64,000 bases of DNA from Halobacterium rubrum. Lineage in GTDB: Archaea > Halobacteriota > Halobacteria > Halobacteriales > Halobacteriaceae. This document shows, piece after piece, positions 56,271-63,869 of the stretch (positions within the stretch are counted from its first letter, which is position 1; every line of letters starts with the position of its first letter). The notes below the pieces were generated by a model. That model was not told the DNA's origin. It made no database searches and worked only from the letters and a program-made list of their open reading frames with translations. Location of the stretch: the NCBI RefSeq assembly GCF_021729015.1, contig NZ_JAJQQZ010000002.1, forward strand, positions 620,001 through 684,000, read 5' to 3'. Position numbers and translations under genes: made by a program.

Positions 56271-58397
56271 TCACAGGTCAGTCAGCGTCGACCACGTGAG
56301 CGACTCGTCGAGGACGACCGGCATCCGGTAGTCCAGGTCGACGAACGACGCGGCTTCGTCCGCAGTCACGCGTTCTGTCACAGTGAATCCGCCGCCGAGT
56401 ACGGACGGCACCGTCTCGATGTTCGGCGTGTAGACGACGCCGAGTCCGTCGTTGGCCGGCGGGAACGTCTCCAGTGCGAACTCGTAGGCGGCGTCGTCCG
56501 CGCCAGCCGGCAGCGACGCCAGGTGCGCGACGACCGGGACGCCGCTCTCGCTCTGCGCGACCTCGTGGCCGCCGTCCCCGAGCACGAGGTACTTGTCGTC
56601 GGCGCGGCCGTACTGCTGGACGACCTCCAGGGCCGACCGCGGCGAGAACCCCTGGTTGACGAGGCGGGCGACGCTCTGCCCGATGAGCATCGCCGAGTCG
56701 TTCCCGATGGGGCGCAGGGTGATGATGCCGGCCTGCGAGCCCGCCTCCACGAACGCCCGCCCGAGCTCGTAGGACGAACAGCCGTTCAGGAGGAACACCC
56801 GCGGCGGCGTCACCGTCGACGCCACCTCGTCGAACGCGAGTTCGCCGTCCGCACACACGAACCGCGTGCCGTCCCGGACGTGCCCGATGTAGTGGAAGAA
56901 GTCCGCCGACCCCGCGGACGCCAGCACGGCCGCCAGTTCCTCGCGGGTGGCGTTGCGCGTGACGGAGACGTCGAACTCGAGGGCGTCCCGGTTCCCGTAG
57001 AGGGGGAACTCGCTGTACTCCGCCCACATGTCGTCCTCGTTGCAGACCACCTGCACCGAGATGTCCTCGGCCGGCGACTGGTCGAACCGCGCCCCGTACG
57101 CCTCCCGGAGCAGTTTCGCGCCGCCGACCGGCACGCCACTGCCCGCGTACGACGTCTCGCCGGCGTCGGTCTCCGGAACGCCGACGAACTCGTCGACGGC
57201 CAGCCCGCCGCCGCGCTCGCGCTCGCGGTCGTCGGCGACGTCCCGGAGGAACTGGTCGACGGACTGCGAGAGCACGGGCGCCGGGTCCGGCTGGTCGTCC
57301 GGCAGCTCCCGAACCACGGCGAGGTCGTCCGCGAGGAACGACAGGTGCTCGATGGGCTGGGGGCTGTCCTCGACGAACACCTCGTGGCGCCACCGCGGCG
57401 CCGCGTCGAGCACGGGCTCCCGGGGGAGGTCGGCGTACGCGCGCAGCCGCTCGACCGGCGAGGCCTCGTAGAGCCGCCGCCAGTCCGCCGGCACCCGGTC
57501 GAGTGCCTCCCCGAGCCGCCGGCAGGCCGCCACCTCGACGTCGTAGAGCCCCGCCGACCGGACGACGCAGTCCAGCGTGAACGCGTGCCTGAGGAACTCG
57601 CCAGCCTCCCGACCGAGGTGCTCCCGGGAGAACGACGCGACCCGGCTGCCGCCCGCCGCGACGTGCGGCGTCGACGCCGGCTCGACGCGCGCGCCGAGGT
57701 AGAACGCCAGCGGTGCCACGGCGTAGACGGCGCCCAGCTCCCGGGGGACGCCGACCGTGACGTCCACGTCGGGGCGCGCCAGCCGGTCGGGAATCGACAG
57801 GTCGTCGCCGACCGTGAGCCGGGGCGGGTGGCCGCGGAGCGTCGGCCACGACCGCTCGGGCGACCGCGTCTGGAGCGCCGCGCCGAACGCTGCCACCGCC
57901 GCCATCACGTCCTCGGGGTCGGTCGTCGTCGTCACCTCCCCGATGGGCCGCGAGTGCTGGCTGCGGACGCCGACGGTGACCTCGCGGGGCCTGTCGTCGA
58001 ACGAGATGGTGACGTCGCTGGGCGTCGCTTCGATGGACGTCGTCGTGTGAGCGGGAATCCGGAGGTACGTGCGCACGGACGTCTGCAACTCCAGCAGCCG
58101 GGGGTCCTCGTGCGTCACCGTGGTCTCGCCGGTGCCCGTCAGCGCCGTCTCGATGTCGCCGGACAGCGGGTCGCGGACGAACGCCGCCGCCAGCCCCGCG
58201 ACCGTCAGCGCCGACGTCCGGACGCTGGCGGCCTCCTCCACGGGGAACAGGAACGGCGCGTCGTCGACGCGCTCCGGGGTCACGGGCCGGGGCGTGTGCA
58301 CGACCACCCGGCGGTTGTGGATGTTGTCACGGAGCGCCAGCCCCGACCGGTCGCCGGACAGCCCGACGATCATCTCGAAGCGGCCGGTGGTCGCCAC
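56271..58397 (-). CDS. CHAT-domain protein (caspase-like protease, haloarchaeal type)
   Basis: 708 residues. The C-terminal third is a CHAT domain: His506 in FHYIGH and Cys540 in LLNGCSSYELG are the catalytic pair, with GSQAGIITLRPIGNDSA after it. The N-terminal two thirds (about 1-430) is a beta-rich region typical of haloarchaeal CHAT proteins, with no TPR repeats. CHAT proteases act as effectors in bacterial death and anti-phage systems; whether this one does is not shown. The GTG start is 3 bases after the stop of a 22-codon ORF driven by the promoter at 58498-58506. Confidence 0.88.
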   Translation of the reverse strand: MATTGRFEMIVGLSGDRSGLALRDNIHNRRVVVHTPRPVTPERVDDAPFLFPVEEAASVRTSALTVAGLAAAFVRDPLSGDIETALTGTGETTVTHEDPRLLELQTSVRTYLRIPAHTTTSIEATPSDVTISFDDRPREVTVGVRSQHSRPIGEVTTTTDPEDVMAAVAAFGAALQTRSPERSWPTLRGHPPRLTVGDDLSIPDRLARPDVDVTVGVPRELGAVYAVAPLAFYLGARVEPASTPHVAAGGSRVASFSREHLGREAGEFLRHAFTLDCVVRSAGLYDVEVAACRRLGEALDRVPADWRRLYEASPVERLRAYADLPREPVLDAAPRWRHEVFVEDSPQPIEHLSFLADDLAVVRELPDDQPDPAPVLSQSVDQFLRDVADDRERERGGGLAVDEFVGVPETDAGETSYAGSGVPVGGAKLLREAYGARFDQSPAEDISVQVVCNEDDMWAEYSEFPLYGNRDALEFDVSVTRNATREELAAVLASAGSADFFHYIGHVRDGTRFVCADGELAFDEVASTVTPPRVFLLNGCSSYELGRAFVEAGSQAGIITLRPIGNDSAMLIGQSVARLVNQGFSPRSALEVVQQYGRADDKYLVLGDGGHEVAQSESGVPVVAHLASLPAGADDAAYEFALETFPPANDGLGVVYTPNIETVPSVLGGGFTVTERVTADEAASFVDLDYRMPVVLDESLTWSTLTDL

Positions 58398-58602: not shown

Positions 58603-60156
58603 CTACCGGTAGAGGTCCAGTCGCCGGAAGGCAGCCCCGAGCAGCACCGCGACGGGGATGATCTCCAGGCGCCCGACCCACATGTTGACGATGAGCATCG
58701 CCTTCGCGGTGTCGGGCATCCCCGGGCCGGTGATGCCGGAGTCCAGCCCGACGTTGCTCTGCGCGCTCATCACGTCGAAGATGACGTACTCCAGCGGGTA
58801 GCCGGGCGAGAGAACGCGCAACAGCACTGCGACGCCGATGGCGAGAAACGCCACCCAGAGAACGAACACGACCGTCGCCTCGGTGTACTCGCGCTGGGCC
58901 TGCTCCTCGTCGAGCTTCCGCTCGCCGAGTTGCATGTACCGGATAGCCGTGTCCGGCCGGAAGACGTCCCGGATCTGCCAGACCGTCCCGCGGACGAGCG
59001 TGGCGACCCGGATCAGCTTCAGCCCGCTGGTCGTCGACCCGGCGGCGCCGCCGGTGAGCATCCCCAGACACGTCAGCAGGGTCGCGCCGGCGCTCCACAC
59101 TTGCTCGGTGCCGCCGCCGATGGTCGCCGTCCCGAACCCCGTGTTCGAGGTCGCGGAGACGAACTGGAAGAGGCTCAGCCGGAACGTCTCCTCGAAGGTC
59201 GCGTACTGGCCGTTCGCGTACAGGATGCCCGTCAGCGCCAGCGAGCCGGCGCCGAACCAGATGAACACCCACCGCGTCTGGAGGTCGGCGTAGAAGTTCC
59301 GCAGCTCCCCCCGGAAGATGAGGTAGTGGACGGGGAACGCGATGCTGCCAGCGACCATGATGGGGACGGTGGCGTACTCGATGAGCGGGCTGTCGTAGTA
59401 CCCGATGGACTCCGAATGCACGGAGAACCCGCCGGTCGCGATGCCCGTCATCGCGTGGTTGATGGCGTCCCACAGCGGCATCCCCGCAAGCAGGTAGAGG
59501 AGGATGGAGCCGACGGTGAGTCCGACGAAGATCTTCCAGATCTCCCGGACGGTCGTCACGATGCTCGGGTGGATCTTCTCCGAGCGCGCCTCGCTCTCGT
59601 AGAGCGTGTACGAGCCGCTGCTCCCGCCGCCCCGCCGGAGAATCGCGACCGTGAGCACGATGACGCCGACGCCGCCCACCCACTCGATGAGCGACCGCCA
59701 CCAGTGCAGCGACCGCGGCAGTTGCTCCTCGACGGCGGCCATCGTCAGCCCGGTCCCCGTGAACCCGCTCATGCTCTCGAAGACTGCATCGAGGGGGTGG
59801 AGGAAGATCACCGTCGTCGAGTCCATCGGGGGCGTGTTCGCCCACACCGGAAACGGGTCGACCTGAATCGTCCACGCGATCAGCAGGAACGGCAGTCCGC
59901 CGAGCACGCCGACCAGCATCCACGCGGTCGCCGCCGTCACCATCGCGTCGCGTTTGGCCGGTGGGTCGGCGTCCCGGTACCGCCGCGCCAGCGCGGTGCC
60001 GACGCCCGCCACCACCGCCGCCGAGGCGAGGAACGCCGGGATAGCGTAGAACTCCCCGTTCGCAGCCGCCACGACGACGGAGACGGCCATCATCAGCGAG
60101 ACGGCCTGCACGATGCGACCGACGTCGCGTCCGACAGTCCGTGTGTCTACTCGCAT
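58603..60156 (-). CDS. trkH: TrkH-family potassium uptake protein
   Basis: 517 residues, multi-pass membrane protein. The four pore loops with selectivity-filter glycines are SMSGFTGTGLT, HAMTGIATGGFS, SATSNTGFGTATI and SAQSNVGLDSG. It forms the channel-like pore of a Trk/Ktr system and needs a cytosolic TrkA/KtrA subunit, provided by the genes just upstream. Two adjacent ATGs occur; the second (60156) is used here. It is the last gene of the local potassium cluster. Confidence 0.95.
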   Translation of the reverse strand: MRVDTRTVGRDVGRIVQAVSLMMAVSVVVAAANGEFYAIPAFLASAAVVAGVGTALARRYRDADPPAKRDAMVTAATAWMLVGVLGGLPFLLIAWTIQVDPFPVWANTPPMDSTTVIFLHPLDAVFESMSGFTGTGLTMAAVEEQLPRSLHWWRSLIEWVGGVGVIVLTVAILRRGGGSSGSYTLYESEARSEKIHPSIVTTVREIWKIFVGLTVGSILLYLLAGMPLWDAINHAMTGIATGGFSVHSESIGYYDSPLIEYATVPIMVAGSIAFPVHYLIFRGELRNFYADLQTRWVFIWFGAGSLALTGILYANGQYATFEETFRLSLFQFVSATSNTGFGTATIGGGTEQVWSAGATLLTCLGMLTGGAAGSTTSGLKLIRVATLVRGTVWQIRDVFRPDTAIRYMQLGERKLDEEQAQREYTEATVVFVLWVAFLAIGVAVLLRVLSPGYPLEYVIFDVMSAQSNVGLDSGITGPGMPDTAKAMLIVNMWVGRLEIIPVAVLLGAAFRRLDLYR

Positions 60157-60302
60157 CATGCGTCGTCGTTCGAAAGCGGGGACGGAGCGTCCCGGGTGTT
60201 CGGGCTACCTGTCCGTGCTCGATGGCAACCGGCGGCGGTCACGGTGTCGGAGCGACCGGGGAGTGCGTGAGACATAGCGTAGTGAGAGTGGTGCGTCGTC
60301 GA

Positions 60303-60989
60303 TTACGCGGAGCGGTCCTCGTAGTGACCGAAGATGTCCGTGAGTTCGGGGTCGGCGCCGTTCGCCGAGTAGACAGTCAGGAGGTCGCCGACCTGGATTC
60401 GCGTGTCGCCGCGTGGCGTCAGCGGCTTCTCCTCGCTGTCGCGCTCGATGGCGACGATCAGAACGTCGTCGGAGAGGATGTCCGCCTCGCCGGCTTCGGT
60501 GAGCGTCTTCCCGGCGATGGGTGCGCCCTCCGTGACGGTGATTTCGAACACCTCAGCCTCGTCGCCGATGCGCATGTAGTCGACGATGGCCGGCCGGGCG
60601 ACCGCCCGGTAGAGGTAGCCAGCGATGAGCTGCTGGGGGTTCTCGATGGTGTTCACGCCGATCTGCCGGAAGAGGTTCATGTGCTCTGCGCTGTGGACGA
60701 CCGACGTGATTGCCGGAATCTCGAACTCCTTGGCGAGCAGGCAGACCATCACGTTCGTCGCGTCCTGGTCGGTCGTCGAGATGATGGCGTCGGCGCGCTC
60801 GGCGCCGGCGTCCCGCAGCGTCTCCTTGGTCGTCGCGTCGGCGTTGAGCACCAGACAGTCGTGTTCGCTGGCGATCTCGTCGGCCTTCTGTGCGTCCCGC
60901 TCGACGACCACGACCTCGTTCCCGGATCTGGTCGCGATCTCGATCAGCGGCGTCCCGATGTCGCCCGCGCCGACAATGATGATGTACAT
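60303..60989 (-). CDS. trkA: TrkA-type potassium transport regulatory subunit
   Basis: 228 residues. RCK_N Rossmann fold IIIVGAGDIGTPL with acidic ribose-binding residue in VVVERD (about 28-33), then RCK_C (about 145-225, AEVFEITVTEGAPIAGKTL). It binds NAD(H) or ATP/ADP and gates TrkH. It lies upstream of trkH with 147 bases between the genes. That gap holds TATA-poor sequence, so co-transcription is possible. Confidence 0.95.
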   Translation of the reverse strand: MYIIIVGAGDIGTPLIEIATRSGNEVVVVERDAQKADEIASEHDCLVLNADATTKETLRDAGAERADAIISTTDQDATNVMVCLLAKEFEIPAITSVVHSAEHMNLFRQIGVNTIENPQQLIAGYLYRAVARPAIVDYMRIGDEAEVFEITVTEGAPIAGKTLTEAGEADILSDDVLIVAIERDSEEKPLTPRGDTRIQVGDLLTVYSANGADPELTDIFGHYEDRSA

Positions 60990-61737: not shown

Positions 61738-61745
61738 TAAATATG
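61738..61745 (+). promoter_or_regulatory. TATA box of Lrp/TrkA-C regulator
   Basis: taaatatg lies 22-29 bases before the ATG at 61767, so that ATG is used and not the upstream one at 61743. Confidence 0.55.
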
Positions 61746-61766
61746 CGCCCTGACCGTACCGCCAGT

Positions 61767-62510
61767 ATGGACCACCGGGTCGACGAGATCGACAAGCGCG
61801 TCCTCTACCACCTGGCGCGAGACGCCCGGAACACGACCGCCGCGGACGTCGCCGAGGAGATGGACGTGACGGCGGCGACGATCCGGAACCGCATCCACCA
61901 GCTCGAAGCCGAGGGCGTCCTGCGCGGCTACCTCGCGGACATCAACTACAAATCCATCGAGGGCCACGTCACCTACCAGTTCAGCTGCACCGCGCCGATC
62001 CCCGAACGGGACCGGCTCGCGCAGTCCGCCCTCGAGGTCTCGGGCGTCGTCTCCGTCCGCGAACTGATGACGGGCAAGACCAACCTGGCGGTGACGGCAG
62101 TCGGGTCGAACACGGACGACATCAGCCGCATCGCCGGTGAACTGTCCGACATCGGCCTCGACATCGAGGACGAGAGCGTCGTCGAGGACGAGTACCACCA
62201 GCCGTACAGCCCCTTCGGGCCGGAAGACGCCCCCGTCGGCCCGTCCCTCACCGACTTCATGAGTCTGGCCGGCGGCGCGGAAGTCGTCGAGTTCACCGTC
62301 TCCGAGGGGGCCGACGTTGCCGGGCTGACCATCGAGGACGCCGTCGAGGGCGGCCTGCTCGCCGACGAGATGCTCGTGGTCGGCATCGAGCGGGAGGGCG
62401 ACGTGTTGACGCCGAAAGGCGAGACGCTCATCCAGACCGGCGACGTCGTCTCCCTGTTCTCGAAGTCCGGCCTCGAGAAGGACGCCCTCGACGTCTTCGG
62501 CTCCCAGTAG
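61767..62510 (+). CDS. Lrp/AsnC-type regulator with C-terminal TrkA-C (RCK_C) domain
   Basis: 247 residues. The N-terminal Lrp helix-turn-helix (DEIDKRVLYHLARDARNTTAADVAEEM, ATIRNRIHQLEAEG) is joined to an AsnC-like ligand domain (about 65-140, TYQFSCTAPIPERD). The C-terminus (about 170-245) is an RCK_C domain: VVEFTVSEGADVAGLTIED, LVVGIEREGDVLTPKG and QTGDVVSLFSK. The fusion suggests a transcription factor that senses the same ligand class as TrkA. Its genomic place beside trkA and trkH supports control of potassium transport (inference). Confidence 0.94.
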   Translation: MDHRVDEIDKRVLYHLARDARNTTAADVAEEMDVTAATIRNRIHQLEAEGVLRGYLADINYKSIEGHVTYQFSCTAPIPERDRLAQSALEVSGVVSVRELMTGKTNLAVTAVGSNTDDISRIAGELSDIGLDIEDESVVEDEYHQPYSPFGPEDAPVGPSLTDFMSLAGGAEVVEFTVSEGADVAGLTIEDAVEGGLLADEMLVVGIEREGDVLTPKGETLIQTGDVVSLFSKSGLEKDALDVFGSQ

Positions 62511-62592
62511 GCCTCGTCGAAAGCGAGCAGTCGACCCCCGTCAACCCGGAAGCGCGCACCGCTGAGCAGTCGCCCGAAATCCACGACGGGTC

Positions 62593-62602
62593 GAAATTAA
62601 TA
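62593..62602 (+). promoter_or_regulatory. TATA region of the TFS-like gene
   Basis: gaaattaata is centred about 38 bases before the ATG at 62636 and predicts a leader of about 10 bases. Confidence 0.45.
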
Positions 62603-62635
62603 CGTACCTCCGGCGGCCGCGTATCCCCACGGTAC

Positions 62636-62953
62636 ATGAAGTTCTGTGACGGGTGTGGTTCGACGATGCACACGGAGGGCGACACGTGGGTGTGTCGCTC
62701 CTGTGAGAACGAGGAACCACGGGACTCGCAGGCAGAAGCGGCGATGACGACCCAGGACGGACAGCAGGACGACGGGGCACCCGCCGTCGCCGACGCGACC
62801 CAGGACGCCACCGAGACGATGCAGGAGCCCTGTCCGGCCGAGGACTGCGACAGCGACCGGGCCGACTACGAGATGCTGCCGAAGCCGGGCGGCTCCTACG
62901 AGGTCCGGCTGTTCACCTGCGTCGAGTGCGGCCACAAGTGGCGCGACTCCTGA
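62636..62953 (+). CDS. TFS/RPA12-like RNA polymerase factor lacking the acidic tip
   Basis: 105 residues. An N-terminal zinc ribbon (Cys4, 7, 20, 23) is followed by a Gln/Asp-rich linker and a C-terminal ribbon (Cys66, 71, 95, 98) of the TFS/TFIIS type ending KWRDS. In active TFS the hairpin tip carries an Asp-Glu pair that triggers RNA cleavage in the polymerase. Here the tip is LPKPGGSYEV without that pair, so cleavage activity is unlikely. It may be a paralogue that inhibits or modulates polymerase, as described for Sulfolobus TFS4. Confidence 0.85.
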   Translation: MKFCDGCGSTMHTEGDTWVCRSCENEEPRDSQAEAAMTTQDGQQDDGAPAVADATQDATETMQEPCPAEDCDSDRADYEMLPKPGGSYEVRLFTCVECGHKWRDS

Positions 62954-63370: not shown

Positions 63371-63386
63371 CTGAATATCGTTAATC
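63371..63386 (-). promoter_or_regulatory. TATA region for the candidate antitoxin, inside the end of doc
   Basis: GATTAACGATATTCAG on the minus strand overlaps the last bases of doc. Its centre is about 25 bases before the ATG at 63355. Confidence 0.5.
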
Positions 63387-63869
63387 CTTCTGGTCGCCCG
63401 AGTCGCCCGTCAACTGCTCGATTCCGTACTGGAGGAGGTCCTCGCGCCACCGCTCGATTTCACCTGCCAAGTCCAGCTCCTCGGTGTGCGTACGGAGGTA
63501 CTCGACAACGTCTGATTCATCGACTGCTCGTTCGTCGGTGCCGAACTGTTTCAGAATCGTCCGAATCTCTTCGTCGTACGCGAACCGGTAGCCGTTCAGG
63601 AAGTAGAATACGGCGACCGTGTTCAGTGCAGACCGTTTGTTCGCGTCCACGAACGGATGGTTGACGACGAGCAGCCGCAGCAAGTGATACGCCTTCTTGT
63701 GAATCGATTCCGGCGCGGCACCGAAGTGGCCCCCCTCGATGTACGCCAGTGCGAACTCTACGTCACCCCGGTCCCTGACGCCGGACGGCGTGTCGGGGTA
63801 CTCCGCCACGATGTCCTCGTGGATGGCGAGGACGTCCTCGACCGACGGGTACCACAGCGAATCACCCAT
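63381..63869 (-). CDS. doc: Doc-family toxin (Fic/Doc)
   Basis: 162 residues. The Fic/Doc motif HPFVDANKR is complete at 71-79. The family's N-terminal WYPSVEDVLAIHEDIV and LEGGHFG-like loop (IEGGHFG, about 44-50) are also present. Doc phosphorylates elongation factor Tu and stops translation in bacteria; the archaeal target is unproven. It is 162 residues against about 126 for P1 Doc, with an extra C-terminal helical region. It is followed by a 46-residue acidic ORF. Confidence 0.92.
   Translation of the reverse strand: MGDSLWYPSVEDVLAIHEDIVAEYPDTPSGVRDRGDVEFALAYIEGGHFGAAPESIHKKAYHLLRLLVVNHPFVDANKRSALNTVAVFYFLNGYRFAYDEEIRTILKQFGTDERAVDESDVVEYLRTHTEELDLAGEIERWREDLLQYGIEQLTGDSGDQKD

Follow-up and report, generated by a model that had tools for sequence, protein, structure and literature searches.

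The window, i.e. the whole 64,000-nucleotide stretch of Halobacterium rubrum DNA analysed here, contains a short gene that encodes a paralogue of the archaeal cleavage factor TFS (Table 1). The first-pass annotation had described the product as a protein that keeps both Cys4 zinc ribbons and has no acidic pair at the tip of the C-terminal hairpin, and the reading frame as well as the residues concerned were confirmed. We refer to it as the DE-less protein.

Table 1. Features of the DE-less gene and the two other TFS genes of the same genome.
Feature	Position	Strand	Remarks
Conserved upstream block	62564..62635	+	in most relatives TTAACACATATATCC, with TATAT about 31 nt before the ATG, often surrounded by a TCGGA/TCCGA inverted repeat
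DE-less TFS paralogue, open reading frame	62636-62953	+	105 aa plus stop
N-terminal zinc ribbon, Rpb9/TFS type	62636..62725	+	Cys4, 7, 20, 23; Pfam PF02150
Linker, acidic	62726..62830	+	omega 0.38, under weaker constraint than the tip
C-terminal zinc ribbon	62831..62929	+	Cys66-x4-Cys71 ... Cys95-x2-Cys98; AF2 strands 75-81 and 90-95
Hairpin tip and descending strand, residues 82-95 (PKPGGSYEVRLFTC)	62879..62920	+	nearly invariant; in place of the canonical (R)SADE
TFSa (canonical)	C2:66561		tip SADES; acidic pair present
TFSb (canonical)	C1:807726		tip SADEP; acidic pair present

Upstream of the gene lies another (61743-62510, +) whose product combines an Lrp/AsnC-type HTH with a TrkA C-terminal domain and is likely to serve potassium-responsive regulation; a TrkA-like gene (60303-60989) and a TrkH-like gene (58603-60159), recognized by eye, are located near it. 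A Fic/DOC family protein (37.1 bits) is encoded convergently at 63381-63869 (-), and there is no sign of such a gene as a shared neighbour at other loci of the DE-less gene. Further upstream, the C-terminal part (HYIGH ... LNGCSS) of a 708-aa protein (56271-58397, -) resembles by eye a CHAT-type protease domain.

All eight cysteines of the two ribbons are present in the 105-residue protein, and the first knuckle of the C-terminal ribbon reads C-PAED-C, which corresponds to a C-x4-C spacing. The stretch from Arg75 to Cys95, ADYEMLPKPGGSYEVRLFT, has no adjacent acidic pair; the tip itself is PKPGGSYEV, preceded by a leucine (LPKPGGSYEV). The N-terminal ribbon passes the Pfam model of RPB9 (PF02150, 31.8 bits, cut-off 25.2), while the C-terminal ribbon fails that of TFIIS (PF01096, 15.1 bits, cut-off 21), though its four cysteines are in place. 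With archaeal TFS, TFSa and TFSb from its own genome included, the protein shares the two Cys4 ribbons, the length and a common ancestry. By contrast, it has a different tip devoid of Asp-Glu, remains below the cut-off of the TFS equivalog model TIGR01384 (35.6 against 64.75 bits), and is accessory and unfixed in position.

Across the entire genome (3.07 Mb), a search revealed two further TFS genes, both with an intact Asp-Glu pair. The first-pass annotation had named the absence of any other TFS as grounds for refutation; with TFSa and TFSb present, this condition does not apply. Within the family, an orthologue of the DE-less gene occurs in 13 of 26 genomes (identity 79-100%), where it constitutes the third TFS copy, and residues 82-98 are identical across these 13 orthologues. 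In the order, about 131 of 392 genomes carry an orthologue as an extra copy, six of them with two such copies, as counted by hand among the matches listed at 181 bits or more. Approximately one third of the examined haloarchaea thus have the DE-less gene, as a lone gene; all 80 of its named loci are haloarchaeal, and 18 plasmid records hold a full or nearly full copy. A phage or virus origin was rejected, as searches of viral contigs and phage records gave no match. Multiplication of tfs genes in Halobacteria is known already (PMC5715097); a literature search of open-licence papers found none on the DE-less family.

In a protein tree, the DE-less family forms one clade (100/100), which groups, again at 100/100, with C-x4-C TFS that bear the acidic pair; the exact branching around these DE-bearing sequences is weakly supported. 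The DE-less family arose once, within haloarchaeal TFS. The C-x4-C spacing of the second ribbon, which had been singled out as unusual, is genuine, yet it also occurs in TFS with an intact ADE from Halosegnis and one related genus and so is not confined to DE-less proteins. The NAC and methyltransferase genes, named by eye, in the vicinity of such a C-x4-C TFS in genome G186 are the same as those near TFSa in the window genome. Because the DE-bearing C-x4-C proteins group with the DE-less family, and because yeast C11 likewise combines a longer knuckle in its C-terminal ribbon (CPNYDTC) with an intact SADE, the spacing most likely preceded the loss of Asp-Glu and does not explain it. It was accordingly rejected as a cause or mark of lost function.

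The Asp-Glu pair is absent from the hairpin tip in all 121 unique genes of the family. In its place the sequence P82-K-P-G-G-x-x-E-V-R is unvarying, save for a single S87A and a single Y88F at the x positions, and residues 82-95 display an omega of 0.024. As many of the 121 genes had been retrieved with search patterns containing the tip, the selection test was redone on 34 genes from whole-protein or whole-profile searches, in which the tip was not used as a pattern. The omega of residues 82-95 is 0.044 in this set, below that of every other 14-codon window (median 0.336), and synonymous change is present in the same residues (dS 0.35). The overall omega of the gene amounts to 0.27-0.31. A diverged tandem copy in G186 has the tip PEPRGSYEV.

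The AlphaFold model of the protein alone, of modest confidence (mean pLDDT 71.7, pTM 0.40; residues 81-90 average 65), shows a zinc-ribbon hairpin, in which the loop at the apex of the C-terminal ribbon contains the invariant residues. The nearest folds retrieved by Foldseek, none of them at E <= 0.001, are those of A12.2, C11 and Rpb9, and for the C-terminal ribbon that of TFIIS domain III. Cleavage depends on carboxylates at the hairpin tip (PMC5715097, PMC6863433). With slightly more confidence than doubt, we regard the DE-less protein as a third, accessory and mobile member of the haloarchaeal TFS family that keeps the polymerase-binding architecture, lacks the cleavage site and competes with TFSa and TFSb. 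The N-terminal ribbon would dock on the lobe/jaw and the hairpin of the C-terminal ribbon would enter the NTP-entry funnel, leaving the active site for RNA cleavage incomplete, and the fixed tip most likely makes a contact of its own inside the funnel. When expressed, the protein would compete with TFSa and TFSb and slow or reprogram transcription in the manner of a dead TFIIS or of TraR. TFIIS with both acidic residues mutated is dominant-negative (PMC6863433). This Asp-Glu to Ala variant, TFIISmut, likewise has a tip of the TFIIS type that lacks the acidic pair and serves as a model of a polymerase-stalling competitor; it is, however, a laboratory mutant, whereas the DE-less tip is a new conserved sequence. 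Factors of the TraR type, encoded on mobile elements, work via the secondary channel (PMC9239242). TraR and its homologues resemble the DE-less protein as small regulators from plasmids and phages, in functional analogy only; they are non-homologous, and the DE-less gene, which was not found in viral and phage collections, has no shared conjugation or phage genes.

A competitor that enters the funnel and does not cleave is the simplest reading of the DE-less protein, which probably modulates RNA polymerase rather than helps it. Dominant-negative TFIIS and TraR demonstrate, as analogies, that a protein of this sort is able to alter transcription. The first-pass annotation had proposed a polymerase-targeted regulator, and this prediction remains the natural reading because a DE-less paralogue stands beside two canonical TFS and its tip is under strong selection. 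An effect other than inhibition, either stabilising or specific to initiation, fits equally well; the protein may also act on some partner different from RNA polymerase.

Among the alternatives, a role as an Rpb9-like accessory subunit, which would sit on the lobe/jaw, tune elongation or start-site use and stay outside the funnel, is rather unlikely. Rpb9, A12.2 and C11 share the two-ribbon plan and are the top matches in the PDB by sequence as well as by fold, Rpb9 is likewise without cleavage activity (PMC5715097), and database names point the same way, the plasmid copies bearing the label 'RNA polymerase subunit M' or a similar one and also RPA12/RPB9/RPC11. These proteins are nevertheless stable subunits of eukaryotic polymerases, whereas the DE-less gene is restricted to about one third of the genomes and often resides on plasmids, unlike a gene for a core subunit. 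Moreover, constraint is concentrated in the hairpin and not in the N-terminal ribbon.

The proposal that the protein is of the TFS4 kind held only in part. Like TFS4 of Sulfolobus (NF047723; PDB 7oqy), it is a DE-less TFS paralogue that keeps both ribbons and coexists with a canonical TFS. TFS4 is, however, defined by a shortened hairpin with three lysines and a basic C-terminal ribbon (PMC5715097, PMC8448823), whereas the hairpin of the DE-less protein is only one residue shorter than in canonical TFS, with a single lysine in the tip, and its C-terminal ribbon has a net charge of -4. The two also differ in origin, the DE-less family having arisen separately, inside haloarchaeal TFS. Membership in TFS4 was rejected on the tip, the charge and the score against the NCBI TFS4 equivalog model NF047723 (27.1 bits, cut-off 120). 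TFS4 is silent during growth and induced by virus infection; a literature search for transcriptomes of virus-infected haloarchaea found none. A haloarchaeal TFS4, in the sense of a potent, virus-induced allosteric inhibitor of the polymerase that acts through a basic tip of the C-terminal ribbon, is distinctly improbable.

Less probable still is that the protein remains a cleavage factor by means of another residue such as Glu89. This residue is invariant in the counted set of 121 unique genes, but it aligns with the glutamate of the canonical SET-R strand and not with Asp-Glu; in addition, the RSADE motif is wholly replaced and the genome already possesses two complete TFS. A decaying duplicate without function is scarcely credible, as the broken copy on pNRC200 of NRC-1, the broken or partial copies L214, L231, L232 and L238 and the degenerate TATA box in the window are outweighed by the overall omega, high-scoring copies in about 131 genomes, a conserved promoter and a tip under stronger constraint than any other part of the protein. 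The selection signal excludes a pseudogene for the family, not for every copy.

The conserved block upstream of the gene points to a regulated promoter, as far as sequence can suggest it. Its TATAT starts 30-31 nt before the ATG in 65 of 80 loci, a spacing as in leaderless haloarchaeal transcripts. An exact TCGGA-N(12-16)-TCCGA repeat surrounds the TATAT in 26 of the 80 loci, against 0.025 expected after shuffling, a figure that ignores the relatedness of the sequences. The window copy keeps the upstream block with a degenerate TATA part (TTAATACGTACC), and because the TATA core is missing there, expression of this copy may differ.

The genomic position of the DE-less gene is not conserved. 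In a test for any common neighbour family within 1.5 kb of the gene, 2.0% of locus pairs shared one for the DE-less gene (23 genomes), compared with 65.7% for canonical TFSa (25 genomes); within the gene's own family the values are 0% and 88.5%, respectively. No neighbour family recurred at more than 12 of the 80 loci with flanks of up to 6 kb, and no Pfam family is enriched among the neighbours. An operon or a partner gene (toxin-antitoxin, defence or conjugation) was rejected on these grounds. In flank alignments, homology outside the gene has ragged ends, which mostly fall 50-217 bp upstream of it and 0-366 bp downstream, with no fixed element end, and an insertion site is common to only a few closely related pairs. 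Searches for a clean empty site, beside the Lrp-TrkA gene in the genus and in Haloferax, gave no clean insertion boundary or target duplication, the sites lying in hypervariable DNA. With no conserved ends, partner gene or transposase, the gene was also rejected as cargo of a defined mobile element.

In the named set, DE-less proteins of other families are mostly 82-93% identical to the one in the window, while the identity of canonical TFSa is 54-74%. In a DNA tree, the family label changes 27 times, compared with a minimum of 6 and with 36.8 for shuffled labels, so the label is not random; these values fit frequent horizontal movement together with short-term vertical inheritance. The gene would thus travel singly with its own promoter and occupy a new place, often a plasmid, in nearly every lineage. 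More tentatively, it may be a nomadic one-gene unit, a funnel factor that spreads alone among haloarchaeal plasmids and chromosomes and imposes its own transcription setting, which would make it an archaeal counterpart of TraR derived from a disarmed TFS.

The DE-less TFS subfamily is new and unusually mobile. The literature search turned up a single archaeal DE-less TFS whose inhibitory role has been worked out, namely TFS4 of Sulfolobales. If the proposed role is true, the haloarchaeal family would be another such TFS, which evolved independently, is far more mobile and occurs in genetically tractable organisms, and the disarming of a cleavage factor would be a recurrent route to polymerase regulators. 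The near-invariant tip and the patchy presence in close relatives make the function directly accessible to gene deletion and to transcription assays in vitro.

Several individual loci display further features. A recurrent IS- or MITE-like motif, approximately TGCTGAATACAGGGCGCGTATGCAGCA and GTTGAAACC, is located near the gene in the flanks of L033, L043, L044, L053, L094, L095 and others; inverted-repeat, IS-like motifs are seen in some flanks, whose alignments gave no single element. At L232 (G163:C3:60059-60232), the C-terminal half of the DE-less protein is fused in frame to a preceding stretch that resembles the beginning of a UDP-glucose dehydrogenase, in what looks like an illegitimate insertion. 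In G186 (L230/L254; C8, ~200717-201424), a diverged DE-less copy directly precedes a canonical C-x4-C TFS across a short gap, an arrangement that may be either a relic of the birthplace or a later insertion.
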